Positions 14,634 through 47,127 of a stretch of 48,617 nucleotides of DNA are shown here, piece by piece. A model generated the notes under the pieces. That model was not told where the DNA came from. It did not search any database and worked only from the letters and a program-made list of their open reading frames with translations. The number at the start of each line of letters is the position of its first letter. Position 1 is the stretch's first letter. The position numbers and the translations under genes were made by a program. Source of the DNA: Selenomonadaceae bacterium (GTDB lineage Bacteria > Bacillota > Negativicutes > Selenomonadales > Selenomonadaceae); assembly GCA_017470715.1 (NCBI GenBank), contig JAFUYE010000039.1, forward strand, positions 1 through 48,617, written 5' to 3'.

Positions 14634-17576
14634 TTATTTCAAGACCTCCGTGAGTGTCTCAATCATTTTCGGAATGTCGAGCGGTTTGGCAATGTGTCCG
14701 TCCATGCCCGCATCTTTCGCGGCTTGAATATCTTCCGTGAACGCGTTCGCCGTCATTGCGATAATCGGGATATTCGCCAGTTTCTGATTGGACAGCTGAC
14801 GGATTTTCGCCGTGGCTTCGTAGCCGTTCATGACGGGCATTTGAACATCCATCAATACAACGTCGAAATCGCCGGGTTTCGACATCGCAACTTTTTCGTA
14901 AGCAACTTTGCCGTTCTCCGCCGTGTCAAGCTGAAAACCGAATTCCGTTAAAATCAGCGTGGCAATTTCGCGGTTGACTTCGTTATCTTCGACCAAAAGC
15001 AATTTCACTTTGCTGAAATCAATTTCGCGTTGCGTGTCGGAAATATTTTCGTCGGGAACTTCGTCGGGTTCGTCGACAATCGGGAAATTCACGCGCACAA
15101 TAAATTCCGTGCCCTTGCCGAGTTCTGTTTCAACGTCAATCGTGCCGCCCATCAATTCGACGATACTTTTCGTAATCGACATGCCCAAGCCCGTGCCTTG
15201 AATATTGCTGACGGTTCTGTCGCGTTCGTAAGCCGCGAAAACTTTTTTGGCGAATTCGGGCGTCATACCCATGCCGCTATCTTTAACGCGCAATTCGTAG
15301 TTGCCGACTTCTTCGTTGCCGCCGGTCTGTCGCAAAGTCACGGTAACCGCGCCGCCTTCGGGCGTGAATTTAAATGCGTTGCTTATCAAGTTCAGCAAAA
15401 CGCGATTTAAACGCGGCGTGTCGCACATGACGGTTTTATTCATGACGTGTTCGACGTTGACGGCGAATTTTAAACCTTTCGTCTCCATTTGCGTCGCGAA
15501 CAAATCACGAACGTCGTTTAACGCCTTGACCAAATTTGATTTTTGCGGATCAAGTTCCATTTTGCCGGACTCAATGCGGCTCATATCCAAAATATCGTTA
15601 ATCAGCGCGAGCAGGTGACCGCTTGACGCGTCGATTTTGTTCAGATAATCGCAAGCTTTTTTCGGAACTTCGTCGGGGCAACGTTCACGCGGGCAATTTT
15701 CGCACAGCTTGTAAAGTTTCTTCGACAAATTCACGTAACCGACAATCGCGTTCATCGGCGTTCGTATGTCGTGGCTCATGTTCGACAGGAAAGTTGACTT
15801 CGCTTTGTTGGAACGTTCCGCCTGCACTTTTTGGACTTCCATATTTTTTTCGCGCTTCATCATCAAATTGTAAATATTGAACATGATAAACAGCGAAATT
15901 GCAATCAAGCCCATTTGCATGAAGTTATGATTGTTGAGCGACGAACTGACAATTTCCATTTGATTTTCGAGATAGTACGCCGAATCGGCTTTTTCGCGGT
16001 CACTCTGCGGAATGCCGTGTTCGTTCATTTCTTCGATGTAGTATTCGCTCAAGTTGCCCAAAACTTCTTTGGCGGCGTCGTTGGTTGATTCGCGAACCCA
16101 AAGCATTGACGTAAAGAAAATCAGAAACAGCAACGCAATCCATGAAATTGTTGACTGCCCGAAACGTCGCAATTCGGTATCGCGCTGGAAAATGTAGCGG
16201 AAGAACACGAAACCGAGAATGCTCCACAGAATCAAAATCAGATAACTTTCCGTCGTCATTGCGCTGACCGTCCACGCGTTCGGCACCATGAAATACAGGA
16301 AAAAAATCGCCGACACGACGCAACCGACAATTCCCGTGAATTGCGGCAGACTTTTGCCCATTGCCCGCGCAGTTATCAGCGTGACGATTGAAGTATACGT
16401 GTAGTCGATTGTCGCGCCGATTGTGTTCACGTCGATAATCCAAGCTATTGCCGTGCGTCCGAGGAACGGTATCGGCAGGCTTAACAGCATGATAAAAAAT
16501 ACCGCGTTCATCGGTGTATGATTTTCGTTGAGCTTGCCGAACCACGGCGGTAACAAATCATCACGCGTCAAGGCGTAAATCAATCGGCTTGCGGCAATGT
16601 AATTTCCGACAAGACCCGTGATAACGCCGCCCATGATTGTCACTGCCAAAAGAATTATTCCCGTGTCGCCCATGAAAAAATTCACCGCGTGCGCCGTCGG
16701 CAAAGTCGCAAGTCCTTCGTAATCGTCAAGGTTGCCAAGGTAATCAACCCAACTTGTGCAACCTGCGGGCAACGTCGAAATGGCGATTATCGCCAAAAAC
16801 GTGTACGCCATTGCCGCCGAGACGACCGAGCAAAATAAAATCGCGAAAGTTTTTTTCACGGAGAACGTGAAACCTTCCGCCGACTGCGAAATTGATTCAA
16901 AGCCGGCGAACGCCCACGGTGCCAACACGACAATTCCGAAAATCGCCGCGAACGAACTGCCGCCTTCGGGCTTCATTGCCGGAGAAATTTCAAAGACATT
17001 TACGCCGCTCGAAACGACTGCACCGAAACAAATCAGCACGCCGCCGAATAAAATTATCGCGCAAACGGTTTGCACCCAAGCCGCCAACTTGCCGCCGCGC
17101 ATACAAATTGCCCCGAAAATCCACAACGCGCCCAAACTCAACAGAGCCTCGCCGAACCAAATATCAAAGCCCGCAATTTGGTAATGAAAACCGAATTGAA
17201 ACATGTCGCCCGTGAATCGTCGGAAAATCAACGGCAGGGCAGTCGCGTTCGCCCAAGTTATCGCGATGTAAACCAAAATCAAAAACCACGAACTCAAAAA
17301 GCCGTGATCGTAGCCGAGAACTTTTTTTGCATATGAATAAGTGCCGCCCGCGTCGGGATATTTGTTCATCATGAAATGATAATTGTAGCCGATAATCAAC
17401 ATGATGATTCCGCCGATTGCCATGCCCAACGCAGTTCCGAGCGGTCCGCCAATCGGTAAAAATGTCGTGCCCGGCATGACGAACGCGCCCCAACCGACTG
17501 CGCAACCGAATGACAATGCCCAAACATTTAGCGGCGACAGGTACGGCTTTAACTTTGTATTTTCTGCTGTGTCCAT
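14634..17576 (-). CDS. Amino-acid permease fused to hybrid histidine kinase
   Basis: 980 residues from ATG 17576. Residues about 15-465 form a twelve-helix APC-superfamily permease (FGCAVGWGAFVMPGTTF; MGGVITGLVGNYIAASR). A thirteenth helix, a roughly 55-residue loop (RESTNDAAKEV...) and a fourteenth helix lead into a kinase: H-box FLSNMSHDIRTPMNAIVGY (phospho-His602), a Cys-rich insert (CENCPRERC), N-box NLISNAFKF, G-boxes DSGMGM and GTGLGM, then a receiver domain with LLLVEDNEVNRE, Asp910 (VLMDVQMPVMNGYEA) and Lys964. By analogy with CbrA (a different, SLC5-type transporter-kinase), it may sense amino-acid flux. No output protein is nearby. The start is weakly supported: GGGAG is 15 bases upstream. 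Confidence 0.93.
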   Translation of the reverse strand: MDTAENTKLKPYLSPLNVWALSFGCAVGWGAFVMPGTTFLPIGGPLGTALGMAIGGIIMLIIGYNYHFMMNKYPDAGGTYSYAKKVLGYDHGFLSSWFLILVYIAITWANATALPLIFRRFTGDMFQFGFHYQIAGFDIWFGEALLSLGALWIFGAICMRGGKLAAWVQTVCAIILFGGVLICFGAVVSSGVNVFEISPAMKPEGGSSFAAIFGIVVLAPWAFAGFESISQSAEGFTFSVKKTFAILFCSVVSAAMAYTFLAIIAISTLPAGCTSWVDYLGNLDDYEGLATLPTAHAVNFFMGDTGIILLAVTIMGGVITGLVGNYIAASRLIYALTRDDLLPPWFGKLNENHTPMNAVFFIMLLSLPIPFLGRTAIAWIIDVNTIGATIDYTYTSIVTLITARAMGKSLPQFTGIVGCVVSAIFFLYFMVPNAWTVSAMTTESYLILILWSILGFVFFRYIFQRDTELRRFGQSTISWIALLFLIFFTSMLWVRESTNDAAKEVLGNLSEYYIEEMNEHGIPQSDREKADSAYYLENQMEIVSSSLNNHNFMQMGLIAISLFIMFNIYNLMMKREKNMEVQKVQAERSNKAKSTFLSNMSHDIRTPMNAIVGYVNLSKKLYKLCENCPRERCPDEVPKKACDYLNKIDASSGHLLALINDILDMSRIESGKMELDPQKSNLVKALNDVRDLFATQMETKGLKFAVNVEHVMNKTVMCDTPRLNRVLLNLISNAFKFTPEGGAVTVTLRQTGGNEEVGNYELRVKDSGMGMTPEFAKKVFAAYERDRTVSNIQGTGLGMSITKSIVELMGGTIDVETELGKGTEFIVRVNFPIVDEPDEVPDENISDTQREIDFSKVKLLLVEDNEVNREIATLILTEFGFQLDTAENGKVAYEKVAMSKPGDFDVVLMDVQMPVMNGYEATAKIRQLSNQKLANIPIIAMTANAFTEDIQAAKDAGMDGHIAKPLDIPKMIETLTEVLK

Positions 17577-17616
17577 AAAAGAGTTACGCGCTCCCGTAAT
17601 GAAAATTTTCCTTGCA

Positions 17617-17644
17617 ATTATACACGAATGCAGGTTAAAGTAAA
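17617..17644 (-). promoter_or_regulatory. promoter of the permease-kinase gene
   Basis: Minus strand -35 TTTACT (17639-17644), 16-base spacer, -10 TATAAT (17617-17622), about 40 bases upstream of the ATG. Lies in the short divergent region shared with the ATP-grasp gene. Confidence 0.65.
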
Positions 17645-17675
17645 GTTGACGATAAGTTGACGGAGGGAAAATTTT

Positions 17676-18686
17676 ATGCGTATCTGGTTCAATCATTGGT
17701 TTTCGACGGCGTATCACCTGATAAATTTGATTCGCGACGGCAACCCCGATTTTCGGTTCGTCGGCTCAAACAAAAACGAATTCGCCATTTACAAGCGCGC
17801 CTGCGACGAGTGGTATCGTGAGCCGGAAAAAATTTCCGAGGATGATTACGTTGACTTTTGCCTGAACTTTTGCCGCGAACATGCGATAAATATTTTCGTC
17901 CCGCGCAGGAATTTGACGGCGATTGCTCAACGGTTGGCGGACTTTGAAAATCTTAACGTAAAAGTTTTGGTCGGACGTGACGCACGCTTGATGAAAATTC
18001 TTGACGACAAAGTTGCAACTTACGAATTCATTTCGGCGGGCGGGCTTGACGAAATTATTCCGACGTATCGGCTCGCAAAAAATTTTTCGGACTTCGTGAC
18101 TGCCTGCGACGAAATTAAAACTTCGACAAATCGCGTCTGCTACAAACTTGCCCGTGACGAAGGCGCATTGACTTTCCGCGTGATTGACGATTCGATTGAA
18201 AATATTTCCGCGTTGCACAACATGCCGAACATGAAAGTTACCCGCGTCGCCGCCGAAAAAATTTTGTCGCGTTACGACTTCAAAATTCCGCTGATTGTCA
18301 TGCCGTATCTGAACGGGCGCGAAGTCAGCGTAGATTGCCTGTCGACACCGCAGGGAAATATTGTCGTGCCGCGTTTCAAGACGAACGGGCGTTTCAGCGA
18401 AATAAAATTCGACGATGAAATAATTTCCGTCGCCGAAAAAATTTTGTCGGTATTGAAACTCGACGTGCCGATTAATATTCAGTTCCGCTTTGATGGCGAA
18501 AAATTTTTCCTGCTCGAAATAAATCCGCGCATGTCGGGCGGCTTGCAACTGTCGTGTTTGGGCGCGGGAATAAACATTCCCGACATTGCGATAAATCACT
18601 TGCTCGGCGTCGAAAAAGTTTGGAGCCGTCCCGAAAAAAATTTTTGTCGCGTCGCAAACATTGAAACGCCGATTATTCTTGACTGA
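17676..18686 (+). CDS. ATP-grasp domain ligase
   Basis: 336 residues. The C-terminal ATP-grasp fold shows VMPYLNGREVSVDCL and the metal-binding strand FLLEINPRMSGGLQLSC. The N-terminal part (1-105) resembles the preATP-grasp domain of carbamoyl-phosphate-synthase-like enzymes. ATP-grasp ligases join a carboxylate to an amine or thiol through an acyl phosphate; the substrates are unknown. ATG with GGAGG nine bases upstream. The 3' end overlaps the convergent DUF4931 gene by 14 bp. Its divergent neighbour is the permease-kinase. Confidence 0.87.
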   Translation: MRIWFNHWFSTAYHLINLIRDGNPDFRFVGSNKNEFAIYKRACDEWYREPEKISEDDYVDFCLNFCREHAINIFVPRRNLTAIAQRLADFENLNVKVLVGRDARLMKILDDKVATYEFISAGGLDEIIPTYRLAKNFSDFVTACDEIKTSTNRVCYKLARDEGALTFRVIDDSIENISALHNMPNMKVTRVAAEKILSRYDFKIPLIVMPYLNGREVSVDCLSTPQGNIVVPRFKTNGRFSEIKFDDEIISVAEKILSVLKLDVPINIQFRFDGEKFFLLEINPRMSGGLQLSCLGAGINIPDIAINHLLGVEKVWSRPEKNFCRVANIETPIILD

Positions 18687-35431: not shown

Positions 35432-35545
35432 CAAAATTGTACTGTGTTAAACTGCGTCATTGTACCGCGAAAATTTCATCTTGAAAAGATTTTGGGCAAA
35501 AAAATTGCCGCCGCGATTGTTTACGACAGCAACAAAAAATTTTTT
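35432..35545. repeat. STAND-associated flank repeat, copy A
   Basis: Downstream of the first STAND gene. The half at 35432-35485 (CAAAATTGTACTG...TACCGCGAAAATTT) and the core at 35498-35545 (AAAATTGCCGCCGCGATTGT, then ACGACAGCAACAAAAA) match copy B (41887-42037); the core also matches copy C at 40142. Confidence 0.75.
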
Positions 35546-35551
35546 CGACGT

Positions 35552-38500
35552 TCAGTTGACTTCTAAGCCGAAATTTTTACACAAGGCAGCAAGTCCGCCG
35601 TTGAAACCCGCGCCGACCGCGTTGAATCGCCATGCGCCTTTGTAACGATAAATTTCTCCGACGACAATCGCCGTTTCGTTCGTGAATTCGTCCGTCAAGT
35701 CGAAGTGCAAAATTTCTTTACGCGTTGTCTCGTCGACAATGCGGGCAGAAATTTTTACGCCGCTGAAATTTTGTTTGCGATTGTCCGCGTCGTAAATCGT
35801 CAACGTGAAGGAAATATTCGCAACGGTGTCGGAAATTTTTTTAAGCTCAACTTGCATTGTCGCCCGCCCGTCACCGTCAAGATATTTCACGCCGCCGGCT
35901 TCTTTGTTGCCGTAGAAAATAAAATCTTCGTCCGCGTGCGCTTTGCCGTCCGTGCTGAGCAGGAACGCCGAGGCGTCAATTTCCAAAGCCGTGTCGCTCT
36001 CCCAACGAAAATCAACGGCGAGTTTGTCGAGCGCAGAATTATTTTTCGCAAGCGGCACGCGCTGACCTTTGCGCAGGTTGAGCGATTCGCTTGTGTCAAT
36101 TTCCGTCGTTGAAATTTTTTCGGGCGAATCCTCTTCCGCTGTTGAAGTTTCTTCGGGCGAATCCTCTTCCGCTGTTGAAGTTTCGTCAGGCGAATCCTCT
36201 TCCGCTGTTGAAATTTCTTCGGGCGAATCATTTTCCGCTGTTGAAGTTTCTTCGTCGTCATTTTTGAAATACGCGGCGAACAGTTCATCGAATTTTGTCA
36301 AAGCCTGCGCGTCGCCGTTGATTTTTCTGCGAACGAAGACCATGAATTCCAAATTTTTTTTCGTCCAAAAATCGTCCGCGCCGAAAGCTTCGAGAAAGGC
36401 ATTAATCGCTTCAAGAAGTTTAATTCGTCCCGCCGTAGCTTCGTCGTGTCGACCGACTTTGTCGAGTTCGGCCGCCGCGTTAAAATCTAAACCAATAATA
36501 ACGCCATAGCCTTGACGATAAAGTTCGTTTCTGTTCGCAGTATTCATTCTGAAATTTTCACGCCAGAGGTCAACAATTTTTGCGCGCAGATTAAGTTCGT
36601 CGACAAATTTTCCCGCGTCGTGAAGAATATCTGCAAGGTTTTTATTTTCCTCGATTGTGTCAACGTTCGAAGGACCGCGATTTTTTTCCGTAATGGCGAC
36701 GCTCTCTCGGCAGTACTGTTCGGCTTTATCGTAATCTTTCAGTTGCTTGCAGACCTGAATTAAACTGTACAAGGCGTTCAAAGTTTCTTGGGAACCTTCC
36801 TCACGACAGAAAGCCCGAATTTTTTCGCGCCAAATTAATTCGTCGGAATAATTTCTCGCGTCCCGAAATATTCGGGCGATTTTTTTCATCGTGTCAAGAA
36901 TTTCTTGGTCGGCGGGTGCAGAATCTTTTTCGAGAAACTCAAGACGTTCTTGATACTTTTCAACGGCGGCGGAACTGTCACCATTGCGATAGAGAAATTC
37001 GGCGTGTTCGCTCAACGTCCGCGAAAAATCTGCGCGGCTCGCGGGACGTTTTTGCTTATAGAAGTCTTCGATTTCATCAAACAGCCGATTATATTCTGCG
37101 CGCTTATCAATGTCGGATAAACGTTTTTGGTAAATCCGTGTCAACCATTCCGATTTAGCTTTGATAATTTCTGCCTCGTCGACATTGGGTTTTCGCTCGA
37201 TAAGCAGAAAAATTTTTCGATCAAGCTCGTTTTTTTCTTCATCGTTTGATATGAATTTACGCATTTCGTTTAGCGTTGCAATGGCGGCGTCATAATCTTC
37301 GACCGGCTCGCGACAAGTTTGCTCGACAATGGCGTTGACAGTTGGATTGATTTTATTTTCCCAACGCCTTGCGTCTGTCGGTTGTCCTGCAGATTTCAAG
37401 TACTCGACCAAAGTTTTAATAAGCTCAACGATTTTTTTGTCGGACTTGTCGACGGCTTCAATGCGGCGTTTCAAATCGTCGGTGAGATTTTTATAAAAGT
37501 CCGTGACATCTTTGCCGCGACCGAGCTTGTTTAAAATTTTCGCGAAGTCTTTGAGCTGACCGGACGGAATGTTTCGTTCGGTTTTTTGGCAGAGCGCAAA
37601 GTATTGACGATAGCGTTCAGCTTTTTCTTCGAGATGTTCTTTGTCGGAAAATTTTCCCAGCGTTCCGATAAATTCGATAAGCGCGCCGATAAGTTTTTGG
37701 TCGTCGTCGTTGGCGGTTTCGTAAAACGCGACAATTTTTTTCAAAAGCGGCAGAGCCTCTTCAAACTTCTTGAGACGTTTAAGATCCGCCGAAAAAGATT
37801 TTGCCGCGTTGATAAATTTTTCGCCGTCGTGCTCGTCGAAAAGTTCAAAAATCTGCCGCCGAATTGCAAACGCTTCGTTTTGTCTGTCGCCGTTTTCAAG
37901 TGCTTTCGACAAAGATTTTTTCGCGTCAATGATTCTGTCGTCGCGCTTGTCAGGATAATAATTTTCGCATTCGGCAACAATTTCCTCACGCAACGGAATT
38001 TCATCCGTGTAGTGTTTTAATTTACGGCGCACGTCGGCAAGCGTCGTCATCACCGAAATTTTTATCGGACGTTCGTCGTCGCGCAGAGAAATTTTTTCGA
38101 CTTTGTCATAAGCCGCCGTCGCAAGTTCGAGAGCTTCTTTGGTTCTGCCTTGTGAGAAACTGAGCGAGCCGCGACGACTTTGGAAGTAAGCGGACGGCAA
38201 AGTTTCAGTGTCGCCGACTTTGATGAAAAATTTTTTAACGACAGCTTCAAGCGTTGAATTATCGAAACGTCTTTCCAACGGCTCAAGATTTTCGCGGTAA
38301 AGCGTCATTAATTCTTCGGGCGCGTCGGTCGTGCGCAAAATAATATCGCTCCACATGCCGAAATAAAAATCGGGCTTGCTGCCTTTGTCGTACCAACGCC
38401 GTTGATTTTCGTCGAAAAATTTTTTGAAGTAAACATTGGCGGCGTCGCGAATCTTGACGAAAAGATTTCGGCAGGTAACGTCGACTTTGAGGCTTTGGAA

Positions 38501-39973
38501 AAAGAACGCGTCAATCGTCCTGTCGAACGTGTAAATTTCGTCGTCGTCGAGGCTCTGCGAATTAGCGCGGGCGAACAAATTTTTAATGCGCTTGTAGGTG
38601 ACATTGTTGAGATTGTCAATCACGGCGGCGGCAATTTCGTCCGTCCAGCGGTTCAAAATGCACAGGCATTGCGTCAGATATTGTCCGTTATCGTCGAGAG
38701 TGCCGACGGCGCGTTCAATGATTTTGTCTTTGTTCTCGCCGAAATCTTTAATGCGCGGCAACCGGCTTTTGGAAATGTTGTCGTAAGTGATTGAACAGGT
38801 GTGCAGATAAAACGGATGCCCGCCCGTGAGTTTGTAAAGTTCGCGGCGAAGATTTTCTTCCTTGACGCCGACCTGTTTCAAATATTCGTTCGACCATTTT
38901 TCGTCGAAAACGTCGACCGTGGTATTTTTGACGAATCTATTGCCCGCAAGATTCACCTCGCCGATTTTGCTGAGCGGGTATCTGCCGGCGATAATCCACA
39001 TGACACGAGCGGCGGCCAAAAGTTTGCCGACCCACCAATCGACGGGCACATCGCGATTTTCGGAAAGCAATCGAACAGTTTTTTTACTGCCGCGTTCTTC
39101 ACCCGTCAAAACTTCGTATGTGTCTAGAAAGACAATCAAATCGGTGTTGTTTTCTTCCAGCCAAAACGAAAGATCTTGCGCGAACAGCGTCGGCAAAAAT
39201 TCTTTGATGTAAGCGGGTTCGTCTTCAGCGTTGAGCTTTTCCAGTTTTTTTGCCGCGTTCCCGTAAGACTTATTGCCTTTCCGATCTGCTGTTTCGAGGC
39301 GCGACTTCTGCTCACGTTTGGCAATTTTCTTGTCGATAAAATCCAAGACATACTTGCCCAATTTGACGACCGGCGTAATTTCCGTAATGCCTTCAGCGAT
39401 ACTTTTTACGCCTTCGCCGAGAGTTTGCAGACCTTCAACAAAAATATCTTCGTCCACAACAGTTTTACCGGCTTTTATCGCGGCCGAAGTTTTATCCTGA
39501 GTACTGAATGCTTTAGAAATATTTTTTTTGACCGAGCGCAAAGTCGAGCTGCTTTCCAACACGGCTTTTTGTTGCTCCGGGCTGACGAATTCGCCGCTTT
39601 TCTTCGCAAGACAAATGCAACCTTTGTCGAACAGCGGGAACTCCATTTGATAATTTTCGCTCAATTTTTTTCGCAAAGCTTTGAGCGTGCCGACCATATT
39701 GGTGCCGTTGTCCATAAAGTCATGGCGAACGAACTTTTTGCCGTACTGTTCGGCGAGCTTTTCAAATTCGTCAAACAAAAGTGTCTTGCCAATACCGCCG
39801 ACACCCGAATAAATCCACAAAACTCCGCCGGCGTCAATGCTTACTGTGGTCTTTGGGGTCAAGTACAAGTCAAAAGCATTTCGTTGGATTTCGCGGTCGA
39901 CAAATTTTTTGCCGAAAGATTCGTTTTCGCTTGAGTTCTGCGCAATGTCGTTGTCTTCAACAAAATTACTCAT
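35552..39973 (-). CDS. STAND-type NTPase with TPR arm and C-terminal TerD domain
   Basis: 1473 residues from ATG 39973 (GGAGG seven bases upstream). Entry motif FVDREIQRNAF, Walker A GVGGIGKT (57-64), Walker B DLIVFLDTYE (278-287), arginine strand MWIIAGRYPLS and LTGGHPFYL form a STAND ATPase module. A winged-helix and long TPR-like helical arm follow (about 480-1230). An 11-residue repeat linker (STAEEDSPEET x4) joins a full TerD domain at 1297-1473: LRKGQRVPLAKN, EIDASAFLLSTDGKAHAD, DFIFYGN, YDADNRKQNF, ETAIVVGEIYRYKGAWRF, GGLAALC. TerD domains bind calcium and belong to Ter stress/conflict systems. A defence or stress-sensing role is inferred. No N-terminal effector is present. It has its own promoter. 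Confidence 0.92.
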   Translation of the reverse strand: MSNFVEDNDIAQNSSENESFGKKFVDREIQRNAFDLYLTPKTTVSIDAGGVLWIYSGVGGIGKTLLFDEFEKLAEQYGKKFVRHDFMDNGTNMVGTLKALRKKLSENYQMEFPLFDKGCICLAKKSGEFVSPEQQKAVLESSSTLRSVKKNISKAFSTQDKTSAAIKAGKTVVDEDIFVEGLQTLGEGVKSIAEGITEITPVVKLGKYVLDFIDKKIAKREQKSRLETADRKGNKSYGNAAKKLEKLNAEDEPAYIKEFLPTLFAQDLSFWLEENNTDLIVFLDTYEVLTGEERGSKKTVRLLSENRDVPVDWWVGKLLAAARVMWIIAGRYPLSKIGEVNLAGNRFVKNTTVDVFDEKWSNEYLKQVGVKEENLRRELYKLTGGHPFYLHTCSITYDNISKSRLPRIKDFGENKDKIIERAVGTLDDNGQYLTQCLCILNRWTDEIAAAVIDNLNNVTYKRIKNLFARANSQSLDDDEIYTFDRTIDAFFFQSLKVDVTCRNLFVKIRDAANVYFKKFFDENQRRWYDKGSKPDFYFGMWSDIILRTTDAPEELMTLYRENLEPLERRFDNSTLEAVVKKFFIKVGDTETLPSAYFQSRRGSLSFSQGRTKEALELATAAYDKVEKISLRDDERPIKISVMTTLADVRRKLKHYTDEIPLREEIVAECENYYPDKRDDRIIDAKKSLSKALENGDRQNEAFAIRRQIFELFDEHDGEKFINAAKSFSADLKRLKKFEEALPLLKKIVAFYETANDDDQKLIGALIEFIGTLGKFSDKEHLEEKAERYRQYFALCQKTERNIPSGQLKDFAKILNKLGRGKDVTDFYKNLTDDLKRRIEAVDKSDKKIVELIKTLVEYLKSAGQPTDARRWENKINPTVNAIVEQTCREPVEDYDAAIATLNEMRKFISNDEEKNELDRKIFLLIERKPNVDEAEIIKAKSEWLTRIYQKRLSDIDKRAEYNRLFDEIEDFYKQKRPASRADFSRTLSEHAEFLYRNGDSSAAVEKYQERLEFLEKDSAPADQEILDTMKKIARIFRDARNYSDELIWREKIRAFCREEGSQETLNALYSLIQVCKQLKDYDKAEQYCRESVAITEKNRGPSNVDTIEENKNLADILHDAGKFVDELNLRAKIVDLWRENFRMNTANRNELYRQGYGVIIGLDFNAAAELDKVGRHDEATAGRIKLLEAINAFLEAFGADDFWTKKNLEFMVFVRRKINGDAQALTKFDELFAAYFKNDDEETSTAENDSPEEISTAEEDSPDETSTAEEDSPEETSTAEEDSPEKISTTEIDTSESLNLRKGQRVPLAKNNSALDKLAVDFRWESDTALEIDASAFLLSTDGKAHADEDFIFYGNKEAGGVKYLDGDGRATMQVELKKISDTVANISFTLTIYDADNRKQNFSGVKISARIVDETTRKEILHFDLTDEFTNETAIVVGEIYRYKGAWRFNAVGAGFNGGLAALCKNFGLEVN
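36108..36254 (-). repeat. 33-bp tandem repeat (four units plus a partial)
   Basis: Units at 36108-36140, 36141-36173, 36174-36206 and 36207-36239, with a partial unit to 36254. Coding strand gives the acidic 11-residue repeat STAEEDSPEET between the TPR arm and the TerD domain. Units 2 and 3 differ by only two bases. Confidence 0.9.
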
Positions 39974-40023: not shown

Positions 40024-40052
40024 AATTTTATAAACTTCAATCGATTTGGTCA
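40024..40052 (-). promoter_or_regulatory. promoter of the TerD-STAND gene
   Basis: Minus strand -35 TTGACC (40047-40052), 17-base spacer, -10 TAAAAT (40024-40029), about 50 bases upstream of the start codon. Among the best promoter matches in the window. Confidence 0.7.
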
Positions 40053-40058
40053 AGCTTG

Positions 40059-40141: not shown

Positions 40142-40184
40142 AAAAAAATTGCCGCCGCGATTGTTCACGACGACAAAAATTTTT
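40142..40184. repeat. STAND-associated flank repeat, copy C
   Basis: AAAAAAATTGCCGCCGCGAT followed by TGTTCACGACGACAAAAATT, same orientation as copy A (35498) and copy B (42003). With copy A it brackets the TerD-STAND gene and its promoter. A second, partial copy begins at 40060. The 243-bp gap otherwise holds the promoter and hairpin; no gene seen. Confidence 0.65.
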
Positions 40185-41886: not shown

Positions 41887-42037
41887 CAAAATTGTACTGC
41901 ATTAAACCGCGCCATTTTACCGCGAAAATTTCCGTTTGAAAAGATTTGTCGCAAAAAAAAATCCCGCCGCGTTGACGGGAAAATTTTTTCGACAAAAAGT
42001 GGACGCCGCGATTGTTCACGACAGCAACAAAAATTTT
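41887..42037. repeat. STAND-associated flank repeat, copy B
   Basis: Between the second STAND stop and aroF. 41887-41940 matches 35432-35485 and 42003-42037 matches 35510-35545. Relative to copy A it contains an extra stretch of about 35 bases holding the terminator. Confidence 0.75.
41953..41980 (-). terminator. intrinsic terminator after the second STAND gene
   Basis: TCCCGTC / GGCGGGA stem on the minus strand (one G-U), five-base loop, followed by nine T. Confidence 0.8.
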
Positions 42038-42041
42038 CCGA

Positions 42042-45000
42042 TTATTTAACGTCTGAAGTCTCCATAGTTTTAACTTCTCTTACAACAGATTCGACTTCCT
42101 TCAAATGTTTCGCGAGTTCTTCTCCGGATAAAGATTCAAGCTCCTCAAACAATTCGTCAACGTTAAAGTCGTCGTCTTCGGGCAACGTGTTGGTATCGCC
42201 GATTTGTTCGCGCAGAGCCGATTCCTCGTCGAATTTTCCTTCGGCGTGAAGAATTCGTGCAAGCCGTTCTTTTTCTTCGAGCGTCTCAAAATAATCCGTG
42301 CCGTGCTTTTTCTCAGTGACGTCGACAAGGATTTTTTGATAGTGTTCGGCTTTGTCGTAAGCCTCAAGTTCCGTGTAATGCGTGCTCAAATCGCGCAACG
42401 TCGACAATATTTCGGGGGCGTCCTCAATGAAATGTTCGCGGCAAAAAGTCAAAGTGCGTTCGTACCATTCCGCTTCGTCGGAATATTTTTCCGCATACAT
42501 AAATGTTTCGGCGATTTTTTTCATCGCGTCAAAGATGTGTTTCGCGGTCGCCTTCGGGTGTTTTTCCACAAAGTCCAAAATTTCCATGCGTTTCGCGATT
42601 GCGGCGGGGAAGTCGTCAAGATGTATTCCAACGAAAAGAATTTGATTGAACAAAAACGTCGACGAAAAGTCATCAAAATTTTTCGGGAAAATTTTTTTGT
42701 AGTAAGCCTCAACGTCCGCGAAAAGCCGGAATTCTTCCGCAGCGTATTCGTCGGTTGATTCTTTTTGAATCAGTCCGCGAAGATGATTCGTTAAATTAAT
42801 TTTGGCGTCGACAATATTTTTTTCGACAACGGAATATTTTTCGGTCAACGCAAGAATTTTTCGCCACAAGACAATTTGACCTTCGTAATAAAATTTCCCG
42901 TCAAGAAAATCGCTGTATTCTTTGAGCGTCGAAACGGCGTCGGAATAATTTTCCACGGGTTCGCGACAAATTTTCTCGGCAATGAATTTCAGCGCGTCGG
43001 TTGCACGTTCCCGCCAAATTTTTTCGTCATCGAATTGTACCGTCAACTTCATGGCGTCCGCCAAAGAAACCATGCGCTTGAAAGTTTTTTCGTCGGGTTC
43101 GGTGACGGATTCGACACGCCGTTTCAAATCGTCAACGAAATTTTTGTAAAACTGCGCGGCTTCGTCGTTGCGTCCGAGTTGCTCAAGTGTGTCGGAAATA
43201 AAAGTTACCAAATCGGCGGGAATCGCAATTTCGTTCGTTTCGTGAAGACGAAAAATTTCTTCGTAGCACGCCAATTTTTCTTCAAGACTGTTCGGGGCGG
43301 AAATTTTATCCCAAAGAAATGACACTTTCCAAAGCGCATTGATTGCATTTTCGCAGTCGTAATTTCTTTTGTAAACGTCGGCGATTTTTTTTCGGACAGG
43401 CACGGCATCTTCAAATTGGTACCGGCGTTCGAGAGTTCCCGCAAGATTTTTTGCCGCAAGGATAAAATTTTCGTCGTCGCGTCCGTCAACTGTTTCGACA
43501 ATCTGCCGCCGAATTTCAATCGCCTCGTCAATCCTGTCGCCGCATTCCAGCGCACGTGCCAAATTTTCCTTCGCGTCAAGAATTCGTTCGTCGTCCGCGT
43601 CGGAATAGTAACTTTCACATTCGGCAATAATTTTTTCGCGCAGATTAATTTCGTCCGCCCGGCGTTCCAAACGATTTAAAATAGCGGCAAGGCAATTCAT
43701 TACCGCAATTTTTAACGCGCAAGTTTCGTCGTTAATCGGCAAGCGTTTCAATTTGTGATACGCCGCCCGCTCAAGTTCGAGAGCATCTTTGACGCGTTCT
43801 TGAAAAAGTTTTGTAACGCCCAAACAATGTTGGAAGTAAGCTGACGGAACAGTTTCGTTGTTGCCGACTTTGTCAAAAAATTTTTCTGCAATTTCCGCCA
43901 CCGTCGTGTTGTCGAAACGGTCTTCAATCGTTGAAAGATTTTCTCTGTGACGCGTCATTAATTCTTCGGGCGCGTCGGTCGTGCGCAAAATAATATCGCT
44001 CCACATGTTGAAATAAATTTCGGCTTTGTAGTCGTCGCCGTAATTTTCTTGCCGATTGTCCGCGAAAAATTTTTTGAAAAAATCATTGGCTCCCTCGCGA
44101 ATTTTGGCGAAAACAGGCACGAACAAAGCGTCTTGTTTCAGCCCCGGCAACAAAAACGCCGCGACTGTCCTGTTGAAACTGTAAACGTTAATTTCGTCGT
44201 CGTCCGTGTCAATGACCTCTGCTTCGGCAAAAAGATCCGTCAAGCGTTTGTAAGTGTTCGGATTGAATTCGGAAATTGCGGCAGTAACAAGGTCGTCCGT
44301 CCACCTGCCCAAAATGCACAGATTCTGTAGCAAAAATAAACTTGCGTCGTCGAAACTTCCCAAAGCCCGTTCAATGATTTTGTCGCGATTCTTGCCGAAA
44401 TCGGACATGCGCGGAACTTTTTTGGCGTCGATTATATTTTGGTAGGTGACGGCGCACATGGTGAGATACAGCGGGTGCCCGCCCGTGAGTTTGACAATGC
44501 CGGCGCGTAAATCGTCTTCGACAATGTCGAGCACTTCCAAATATCTGTTCGCCCAATTTTTTTCGAGCACGTCGACGCTATAATTTTCAACGGCGTCAAT
44601 GTCTTCAATCGCAATTTCGCCGATTTCGCTTATCTCGTATCGACTTGCGATAACCCACATGACGCGAGAGGCGGCAAGAAGTTCGCCGACCCACCAATCG
44701 ACGGGCACATCGCGATTTTCGGAAATCAAACGAACATTTTTTTTCTTGCCGAATTCTTCGCCCGTCAAAACTTCGTAGGTGTCGAGAAAAATAATCAAAT
44801 CCGTGTTGAATTCTTCAAGATAAAACGAAAGATCTTGCGCGAAAAGTTTCGGCAAAAGTTCTTTAACGTAAGCGGGGTCATCTTCGGCGTTGCATTCTTC
44901 CAGTTCGCGTAAAAGTTCTCCGTATTCTTCGTTGCCGTTGGCGCGATAGTTTTCGTCAGCCCGCTGTATTCGATTTTCGATAAGATGCAAAACCGGCTTG

Positions 45001-45668
45001 AGAGCTTTTAACAGGACGAGAGCTTCCACGCCGCCGGAAAAAATTTTCGGCAGATATTCGACAACAGAACTCACAGATGATTTCAAATGCGTTGAAGTCT
45101 CCACCAATTCAAGAAGAAAATCTTTCAAATCTTCGGAATTGGATTCGCCTATGGTTTCAGAAATTTTGTCGGAAAATTTATCGACGAAGGTAATGTAATC
45201 GTCCTTGTCGTTAATGACGGCTCCGCTCAGCGCGATAAACAAATTTCTTTTAAACCAGCGGAAAGCGGCCGTGTCCAGCAAAATTTTTTTCTTTTGCTCA
45301 TCGCTGACGAACTCGCCGTTTTTCTGCGCAAGATAAATGCAACCTTTGTCGAAAAGCGGAAACTCCATTCGATAACGGTCGCTCAATTTTTTTCGCAGAG
45401 TTTTAAGCACGGCAACCGGGTCGGTGTTACTTTTGAAGTCGTGCAGAACAAAATTTTTGTTTAATGCGCCCGCCATTTTTTGGAATTCGTTAAACAGCAA
45501 GGTTTTGCCGATACCGCCGACGCCCGAATAAATCAGTAACGCTCCGTCGCCGATTCCCGAATTTTTTATGGCGGTCAAATGTTTTTGAAACGAATATCGC
45601 TGAACTTCGCGGTCGACAAAAACGGGCGTCAGCTCGGTAATCGGCTGTGGTTTCGGTTTAATTTTCAT
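42042..45668 (-). CDS. STAND-type NTPase with TPR arm, no TerD (paralogue)
   Basis: 1208 residues from ATG 45668 with AAGGTGA upstream. Clearly paralogous to the TerD-bearing protein: FVDREVQRYSF, Walker A GVGGIGKT (49-56), NTDLIIFLDTYEVLTGEE, SENRDVPVDWWVGELLAASR, LTGGHPLYLTMC, MWSDIILRTTDAPEELMT, and TPR units in the C-terminal half (YDKAEHYQKILVDVTEKKHG). It ends in an acidic helical tail (DVDELFEELESLSGEELAK-like) where the paralogue continues into TerD. No N-terminal effector is present. It follows cbiD by 23 bp and may be read from the same transcript. A defence-type sensor role is inferred from the STAND-TPR layout. Confidence 0.9.
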   Translation of the reverse strand: MKIKPKPQPITELTPVFVDREVQRYSFQKHLTAIKNSGIGDGALLIYSGVGGIGKTLLFNEFQKMAGALNKNFVLHDFKSNTDPVAVLKTLRKKLSDRYRMEFPLFDKGCIYLAQKNGEFVSDEQKKKILLDTAAFRWFKRNLFIALSGAVINDKDDYITFVDKFSDKISETIGESNSEDLKDFLLELVETSTHLKSSVSSVVEYLPKIFSGGVEALVLLKALKPVLHLIENRIQRADENYRANGNEEYGELLRELEECNAEDDPAYVKELLPKLFAQDLSFYLEEFNTDLIIFLDTYEVLTGEEFGKKKNVRLISENRDVPVDWWVGELLAASRVMWVIASRYEISEIGEIAIEDIDAVENYSVDVLEKNWANRYLEVLDIVEDDLRAGIVKLTGGHPLYLTMCAVTYQNIIDAKKVPRMSDFGKNRDKIIERALGSFDDASLFLLQNLCILGRWTDDLVTAAISEFNPNTYKRLTDLFAEAEVIDTDDDEINVYSFNRTVAAFLLPGLKQDALFVPVFAKIREGANDFFKKFFADNRQENYGDDYKAEIYFNMWSDIILRTTDAPEELMTRHRENLSTIEDRFDNTTVAEIAEKFFDKVGNNETVPSAYFQHCLGVTKLFQERVKDALELERAAYHKLKRLPINDETCALKIAVMNCLAAILNRLERRADEINLREKIIAECESYYSDADDERILDAKENLARALECGDRIDEAIEIRRQIVETVDGRDDENFILAAKNLAGTLERRYQFEDAVPVRKKIADVYKRNYDCENAINALWKVSFLWDKISAPNSLEEKLACYEEIFRLHETNEIAIPADLVTFISDTLEQLGRNDEAAQFYKNFVDDLKRRVESVTEPDEKTFKRMVSLADAMKLTVQFDDEKIWRERATDALKFIAEKICREPVENYSDAVSTLKEYSDFLDGKFYYEGQIVLWRKILALTEKYSVVEKNIVDAKINLTNHLRGLIQKESTDEYAAEEFRLFADVEAYYKKIFPKNFDDFSSTFLFNQILFVGIHLDDFPAAIAKRMEILDFVEKHPKATAKHIFDAMKKIAETFMYAEKYSDEAEWYERTLTFCREHFIEDAPEILSTLRDLSTHYTELEAYDKAEHYQKILVDVTEKKHGTDYFETLEEKERLARILHAEGKFDEESALREQIGDTNTLPEDDDFNVDELFEELESLSGEELAKHLKEVESVVREVKTMETSDVK

Positions 45669-46764: not shown

Positions 46765-47127
46765 TTATGCCGCTCCAACCGTTGTTGACGAAGAAACTTT
46801 TTTCGCGTCAAGCATTTTTCTGTAAGCGTCCGTGTCAACTTTAATCAACGTGACAAATGCGCTTGTTGAAAATTCGTCGGGTTCGGCTTTGACTTGGTCA
46901 ATCGGAGTCGGTTCGACAATGCGATTTTTCATCGGCGGATCTAATTTTCCTGCCTTGAAGTCTTCGTAAAGTACCAACATGCCCGCAAGCGCGTCTTCAG
47001 CCATCTCCAACGCTTCGTAAAGCGAATTGCCGAAAGTTGCCGCGCCCGCAACGTCGGGGAAGTCAACGCACCAAGTATCTTCCGACTCTTTATCTTTTTG
47101 GAAAATTGCAGGATAAACATACTTCAT
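46765..47127 (-). CDS. hicB: HicB-family antitoxin
   Basis: 120 residues. YPAIFQKDKESEDTWCVDFP and DVAGAATFGNSLYEALEMAE form the RNase-H-like HicB fold; the C-terminal part (KVDTDAYRKMLDAKK) may carry the DNA-binding or toxin-binding region. It neutralises HicA. ATG with GGAGGG seven bases upstream. It follows hicA by 12 bp, the usual toxin-first order. Confidence 0.9.
   Translation of the reverse strand: MKYVYPAIFQKDKESEDTWCVDFPDVAGAATFGNSLYEALEMAEDALAGMLVLYEDFKAGKLDPPMKNRIVEPTPIDQVKAEPDEFSTSAFVTLIKVDTDAYRKMLDAKKVSSSTTVGAA

Follow-up and report, generated by a model that had tools for sequence, protein, structure and literature searches.

Does the rumen bacterium whose DNA is analysed here (a member of the Selenomonadaceae) really encode a STAND-type NTPase, a TPR arm, an acidic linker and a TerD domain in a single protein and, if so, what might such a protein do? 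The Ter system has long been tied to tellurite, stress and phage inhibition, and its mechanism has never been clear. The window, by which we mean the whole stretch of 48,617 nucleotides that was analysed, carries the gene on its minus strand (35552..39973): the reading frame opens with an ATG at 39973, with GGAGG placed 7 bases 5' of it, closes with a stop at 35552, and codes for 1473 residues. As we show below with Pfam and with relatives in other genomes, the four-part combination is real and recurs across genomes. The parts, all on the minus strand, are the NTPase (residues 1-460; 38594..39973), the TPR arm (residues ~600-1238; 36260..38176), the linker (residues 1239-1297; 36083..36259) and a TerD domain that lacks the calcium loop (residues 1298-1473; 35552..36082).

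The last 177 residues give a significant TerD match (E=5e-50): Pfam family PF02342 is matched by residues 1298-1468 over profile positions 3-187 of 187, with 170 bits against a cut-off of 25.3. In a sequence comparison with solved structures, the TerD chains 2kxt and 3ibz come nearest, followed by the TPRs of kinesin light chain. The TPR arm is real as judged from profile and model, since TPR_12 scores 61.8 bits against a cut-off of 30.1 (E=6.9e-17) and a structure model with fold search predicts helical hairpins resembling those of kinesin light chain at residues 1001-1237. In the model of arm, linker and TerD together, the TPR region lies mostly above a pLDDT of 70, the linker is disordered or of low confidence, and TerD stands at about 50; the fold search of that model returns chains that are mostly of TPR type, kinesin light chain among them, with no TerD among the 50 best. 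Between arm and TerD sits the linker, in which 25 of the 59 residues are acidic (D or E) and which is coded by a 33-base repeat present in 4.7 copies (36101-36254).

The NTPase part requires more care. A domain search of the N-terminal part gives a divided answer: 13 of the 15 aligned family members match AAA_16 at E<=0.1 (9 of the 15 match NB-ARC and 5 NACHT), but the window's own member reaches AAA_16 at E=0.14, under the cut-off, when the fused protein is searched, and its NTPase part scanned alone has no Pfam match at E<=0.1. E. coli MalT, an accepted STAND protein, also misses AAA_16, with 23.8 bits against a cut-off of 32.6. The original prediction had named loss of the Walker residues in homologues as evidence against it; in the 15-row alignment these residues are retained. 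Walker A (GVGGIGKT, residues 57-64; 39782..39805) follows the pattern GxxxxGK[ST] with G57, G62 and K63 invariant, and Walker B (LIVFLDTYE, residues 279-287; 39113..39139) follows hhhhDxYE with Y286 and E287 invariant and D284 kept in at least 90% of rows. Also invariant are R331, G385 and P387, and the motif TxGxP (T383, G385, P387) is kept; we take R331 to be the sensor arginine, and TxGxP the GxP motif, of STAND NTPases. When the alignment profile is compared with the PDB, it finds an NB-ARC protein at E=9.5e-4, spanning the P-loop region only, and a two-sequence structure model of the NTPase has a pLDDT of 33.6, too low for use. On these alignments and matches the assignment to STAND is likely, not proven.

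KAP NTPases carry a transmembrane hairpin between Walker A and Walker B. Such a hairpin is ruled out in the fused protein, whose insert reaches a largest hydropathy mean of 0.87; in distant paralogues the same insert reaches means of up to 1.77, and there a transmembrane hairpin is weakly possible. Over the whole fused protein the largest 19-residue Kyte-Doolittle mean is 1.23, which is below transmembrane strength, so that the membrane effect once suggested finds no support. The preferred model set out below places the protein in the cytosol, and this placement shares the tentative standing of that model.

We sampled 66 genomes of the genus, the bacterium's own included, using the first 524 residues as the NTPase query. 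Relatives of the NTPase family are present in 17 of the 66. The survey for the same fusion yielded two further single-frame copies, one broken copy and two partial ones. The single-frame fusions measure 1473 residues in the window, 1430 in genome G070 and 1377 in G061; because single-frame copies thus recur in other genomes of the genus, the fusion is no assembly accident. Broken copies stand at loci L039/L096 and L094; the one at L039 has the same flanking neighbours as the window gene, and L096 (in G067), whose frames are those of L039, appears to be the same record. The partial copies are TPR-TerD pieces cut by contig ends: 989 residues in G025, starting just before the TPR arm, and 479 residues in G011, a piece that comprises TPR and TerD only. 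TerD is absent from all nine loci of unfused members that we examined, as well as from the frames of G555 (802 residues) and G114 (1847 residues). Four unfused members searched with Pfam have NTPase- and TPR-type matches only and no output domain; therefore, the fold may work without TerD.

Beyond the genus the family thins out. The NTPase profile finds 7 of 300 genomes of the class, 6 of these in the genus, and 7 of 398 genomes of the phylum, the own genome among them and the other six being weak or partial matches; the named genome collection yielded a single relative, in an assembly of a Selenomonadaceae bacterium from the rumen of roe deer. TerD occurs in 16 of 299 phylum genomes, and among the phylum matches listed only the window's frame exceeds 700 residues (the next has 684). 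Within the genus, 65 of the 66 genomes have TerD genes, and the matches listed include a 742-residue frame with TerD in G066. An origin of the whole protein from phages or plasmids was considered and rejected: 86 phage and 2607 plasmid records match, none covers 80% of the query, and the best 15 of each set match the TerD part only. Two scans of viral_contigs found no relative.

The position of the gene speaks to its status in the genome. In G016 the corresponding site is empty, trmB being followed directly by tsaD, and the flanking housekeeping genes are 84-98% identical to those of the window. Because of this empty site, and because the NTPase family is found in only 17 of the 66 genomes, the gene is accessory, and it is probably a self-contained single-gene unit. 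A conserved housekeeping context had been named as a point that would weigh against a defence role; the flanks are indeed the housekeeping genes trmB and tsaD, but the fused gene is an insertion between them and not part of a conserved operon. In G070 and G061 the fused gene occupies a different site, adjoining glyA and an ATP-cone reductase (read by eye).

Of the ten neighbours searched with Pfam, nine were matched and one matched nothing; the matches are a kinase, QueF, a histidine phosphatase, TsaD, a tRNA-type methyltransferase, DAHP synthase, CbiD, a GDP-mannose dehydratase-type protein and a HicB-like antitoxin (46765-47127, minus strand; 6.8 kb upstream of the fused gene). The HicB-like antitoxin alone among these ten bears on the defence genes that had been anticipated, and no other anti-phage gene was recognised. 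PADLOC 2.0 gives 0 families at E<=1 for the fused protein and no match for the paralogue in the window, with weak partial matches for two of six further window proteins. Elsewhere, the TPR-TerD gene of G025 (locus L042) lies 1.4 kb from a GmrSD restriction gene. As a separate observation, the window also encodes (14634-17717, minus strand) a 1027-residue protein that combines an amino-acid permease, a histidine kinase and a receiver domain.

The gene has candidate signals of its own. Upstream lies a promoter-like TTGACC-17-TAAAAT (40025..40053, minus strand), a consensus match in a region that has 21 promoter-like sites against a shuffle mean of 11.1. Terminator-like hairpins on the minus strand stand between trmB and the gene (12 pairs, 40149..40176) and after the gene (11 pairs, 35504..35533); the scan found 17 sites against a shuffle mean of 27.8, and the terminator reading of these two rests on their stem lengths, the longest found, and on their T runs. 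Each hairpin overlaps one copy of an identical 24-base sequence (35498-35521 and 40142-40165, minus strand); even with up to 2 mismatches allowed, the 2.9-Mb genome has no further copy. Because of this overlap we do not favour the repeat as the end of a mobile element. Part of the 24-base sequence recurs after the paralogue, at 42004-42023.

That paralogue, a STAND-TPR protein without TerD and about 48% identical (42042..45668, minus strand, ATG at 45668), sits 2 kb upstream of the fused gene. The two were considered as an obligate pair, which we do not favour: G016 has the orthologue of the paralogue and a trmB/tsaD site without the TerD copy. On the L039 contig all frames and the STAND-TPR matches listed (three of a total of four) fall within the fused gene, and none of them lies in the 3.7 kb upstream of DAHP synthase. 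A third STAND-TPR relative of the own genome (L047:2-2012, minus strand) is split over frames and runs off its contig.

Ter genes are not found beside the fused gene, whose neighbours are tsaD, trmB, DAHP synthase and CbiD. A Ter partner is nevertheless present in the cell, because TerD is nearly universal in the genus and because contig C105 of the own genome bears a TerD cluster that comprises tandem TerD genes, an EIIA-TerD gene, glycosyltransferases, a cation ATPase and a phosphorylase. The EIIA (PTS)-TerD fusion of this cluster is at L046:5438-6628 (minus strand). Other TerD arrangements in the genus are an M48 peptidase-like protein of G017 with a canonical TerD at its end (L055:7378-8856, plus strand), that is, a further TerD tail on an unrelated protein, and a run of seven adjacent TerD-bearing frames in G003, several of them divergent (L044:5966-13459, plus strand).

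The reading that we prefer, tentatively and with rather less than even confidence, is that of a cytosolic STAND sensor-switch whose TerD tail docks on or signals to the Ter system, conflict with phages or mobile elements being a plausible setting. At rest the arm would hold the NTPase closed; binding of a phage-, mobile-element- or stress-derived target by the TPR arm would open the NTPase, ATP would drive oligomerisation, and the TerD tails, each on its flexible acidic tether, would be gathered together. Once clustered, the tails might attach or signal to the Ter system that is nearly universal in the genus, and would serve as an adaptor instead of sensing calcium. The switch and the oligomerisation are modelled on known STAND proteins; Ter as the target, and a role in conflict, we suggest with more reserve. 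In favour of the preferred reading are the motifs kept in 15 members, the TPR arm, the strong TerD match and its conservation in fusions, and also the patchy distribution, the empty site in G016, the broken copies and the GmrSD gene near the G025 copy. Against it are the lack of a PADLOC match, the housekeeping flanks in the window, and an arm that is not faster-evolving than the NTPase in every pair.

The arrangement itself is not without precedent. MalT of E. coli likewise runs from an NTPase through a TPR-type sensor to a C-terminal output domain, which rules out an unprecedented domain order. Passages of PMC4381067 state that STAND effectors occur at either end of the protein, so the order that the original prediction called unusual is not so; they also state that MalT multimerises when its inducer binds, an example of a STAND protein in which the TPR-type sensor can set off this step. 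The output of MalT is a LuxR-type DNA-binding domain, whereas that of the fused protein is TerD, with no GerE match in Pfam, and no homology between the two proteins is detectable beyond the P-loop. In the STAND anti-phage proteins known as Avs the effector is N-terminal. Avs and related proteins share with the fused protein a STAND NTPase and a long repeat arm as putative sensor; the fused protein differs in its TerD tail, in having no N-terminal effector matched and in matching no PADLOC model.

The likeness to MalT, which senses maltotriose, opens a second explanation: the protein may be a non-immune STAND regulator of stress or metabolism, whose arm detects a small molecule or the state of the cell and whose TerD feeds the Ter stress response. 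The domain order is MalT's, the gene is a self-contained unit amid housekeeping genes, and TerD is nearly universal in the genus, so that we regard this as a serious alternative, if a somewhat unlikely one. MalT is, however, not detectably related past the P-loop, and the patchiness of the family together with its broken copies would be unusual for a regulator of core physiology.

The rates at which the domains change bear on the same choice. Between the window protein and those of G070 and G061, TerD windows are 55-63% identical, and parts of the TPR arm have as little as 20-39% identity; the NTPase, too, has a low zone (residues 151-250), with 26-30%. Between G070 and G061 this contrast is missing, apart from the last part of the arm, with 61-69%. 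Compared with the broken copy at L039, the TerD of the window is 88% identical and the other pieces 46-62%. The G070/G061 pair is under purifying selection, with dN/dS of 0.20 in the NTPase, 0.23 in the next segment, 0.28 in the TPR arm and 0.19 in TerD; an unfused pair, namely the window paralogue and its G016 counterpart, gives 0.40 in the NTPase, 0.51 in the next segment and 0.37 in the arm. Because the fusion recurs and its domains show these low ratios (0.19-0.28), the gene appears to be maintained. These comparisons bear out a fast-evolving sensor arm only in part, because G070 and G061 lack the contrast and dN/dS does not single the arm out; in neither of the two pairs measured does the arm clearly outpace the NTPase, which is a further point for a non-immune regulator.

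A narrower form of the immune idea goes further than the preferred reading. An NLR-like protein would sense an invader and oligomerise, and its calcium-blind TerD, as an adaptor, would trigger or poison the resident TerD machinery; taken as a whole we consider this unlikely. Conflict genes often show patchy single-gene occurrence with broken copies, and to that extent the earlier conflict claim is supported; an immune function is inferred from this patchy and decaying pattern, and is plausible and unproven. According to passages of PMC7159879, TerD (as a nucleotide-binding domain) and STAND NTPases are both named components of vWA-MoxR conflict systems; these are multi-gene, ternary systems, whereas the fused protein is the product of a single gene. 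Another known family, the TPR proteins of FxSxx-COOH systems (NF040586), matches the distant paralogue in G014 with 508.5 bits against a cut-off of 300; the window protein scores 54 bits, far under that cut-off.

What the TerD tail might contribute depends on whether it can bind calcium. In passages of PMC8779313, site 1 of Klebsiella TerD consists of residues 40, 41, 42, 78, 79 and 89, and site 2 of residues 29, 82, 84 and 88. We mapped these positions by motif, through the genus's own canonical TerD and not by a structure file, and by this mapping the six fused TerDs retain 2 or 3 of the 10 ligands. Positions 82 and 84 are absent in all six, Asp40 is replaced by Glu in all, 79, 88 and 89 are lost or changed, and 78 is lost or changed in five. 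Thus, the domain that had been called a complete TerD matches the profile over its full length but carries a deletion at the canonical calcium loop, and the calcium effect proposed along with it is not supported: we reject a calcium effector because of the deleted ligand loop, and calcium sensing is, on these alignments, unlikely because all six fused TerDs lack that loop. KP-TerD (PDB 2kxt/2kxv) belongs to the family that the fused protein matches over its full length; the fused TerD differs from it in having no calcium-ligand loop, in being joined to a 1300-residue sensor and in lying away from ter genes. Loss of the loop is not peculiar to the fusions. All ten ligands are present in 23 of the 32 'long' TerDs of the genus, a class that includes a few divergent members, and 18 of the 21 'short' ones lack 78, 79, 82 and 84, in a class (short400) that includes the loop-bearing L015 and, partly, L017; therefore, the fused TerDs may stem from a class that was calcium-blind beforehand. 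Because the calcium loop is gone while the remainder is conserved, a role as an adaptor or in binding some ligand appears more likely than calcium sensing.

Such a ligand is central to a third explanation, in which TerD is a second sensor or a decoy: it would bind a Ter signal or serve as bait for an invader's attack and so license the switch, with the assembled NTPase as the output. TerD has been proposed to be a domain for nucleotide derivatives or other ligands, which binds a nucleotide-derived signal and acts with submembrane Ter components (passages of PMC7824862 and PMC7159879). The tail is, moreover, optional within the family, and in a tree of 59 of the 63 TerD domains (we excluded three that scored below 140 bits and a near-duplicate row of L031) the six fused TerDs form one group apart from operon TerDs. 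That grouping is weakly supported (87/9, and 84% of bootstrap trees), so that a single origin of the fused TerD is possible, not firm, and the tail lies far from the NTPase in sequence, behind a long flexible linker. We find a sensor or decoy decidedly unlikely.

The preferred reading, in which the tail is an output or adaptor, is consistent with how TerD is distributed over the NTPase tree. There the TerD label needs at least 2 changes, a count which assumes that the N-terminal half on a separate contig in G025 belongs to the G025 fusion; the tail thus comes and goes, and together with the nine of nine unfused loci without TerD this fits an exchangeable output module. The TerD-less protein of G017 ends with the cap that immediately precedes the linker in the window protein; when its C-terminal end was aligned pairwise with the window TerD, the apparent identity was 30-38%, which proved spurious on inspection. 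That the tail is a neutral or nearly neutral passenger of local recombination, as same-clade relatives that lack it (G017 stops where the linker begins) and the abundance of TerD genes in the genus might suggest, is highly improbable given dN/dS values for TerD of 0.19 (G070/G061) and 0.22 (window/L039), its place among the better conserved parts, and a junction, EIDT(S/R)ESLxLRKGQRVPL, common to three fusions.

The analysis of the Ter system by Anantharaman et al. in 2012 may list related architectures. Titles and abstracts of the open literature, in which subscription papers are mostly absent, report no STAND-TPR-TerD combination in one protein, and the TerD passages of papers that name TerD, STAND and TPR together describe no such fusion; within that scope, the earlier statement that no characterised protein combines these domains holds. 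With TerD and a STAND switch joined in one natural protein, deletion tests can address what TerD means, whether output, adaptor or second sensor, and the tail-less relatives are natural controls for a TerD deletion. If the immune form of the idea is true, an NLR-like protein with a Ter output would join two conflict systems that have hitherto been studied separately.
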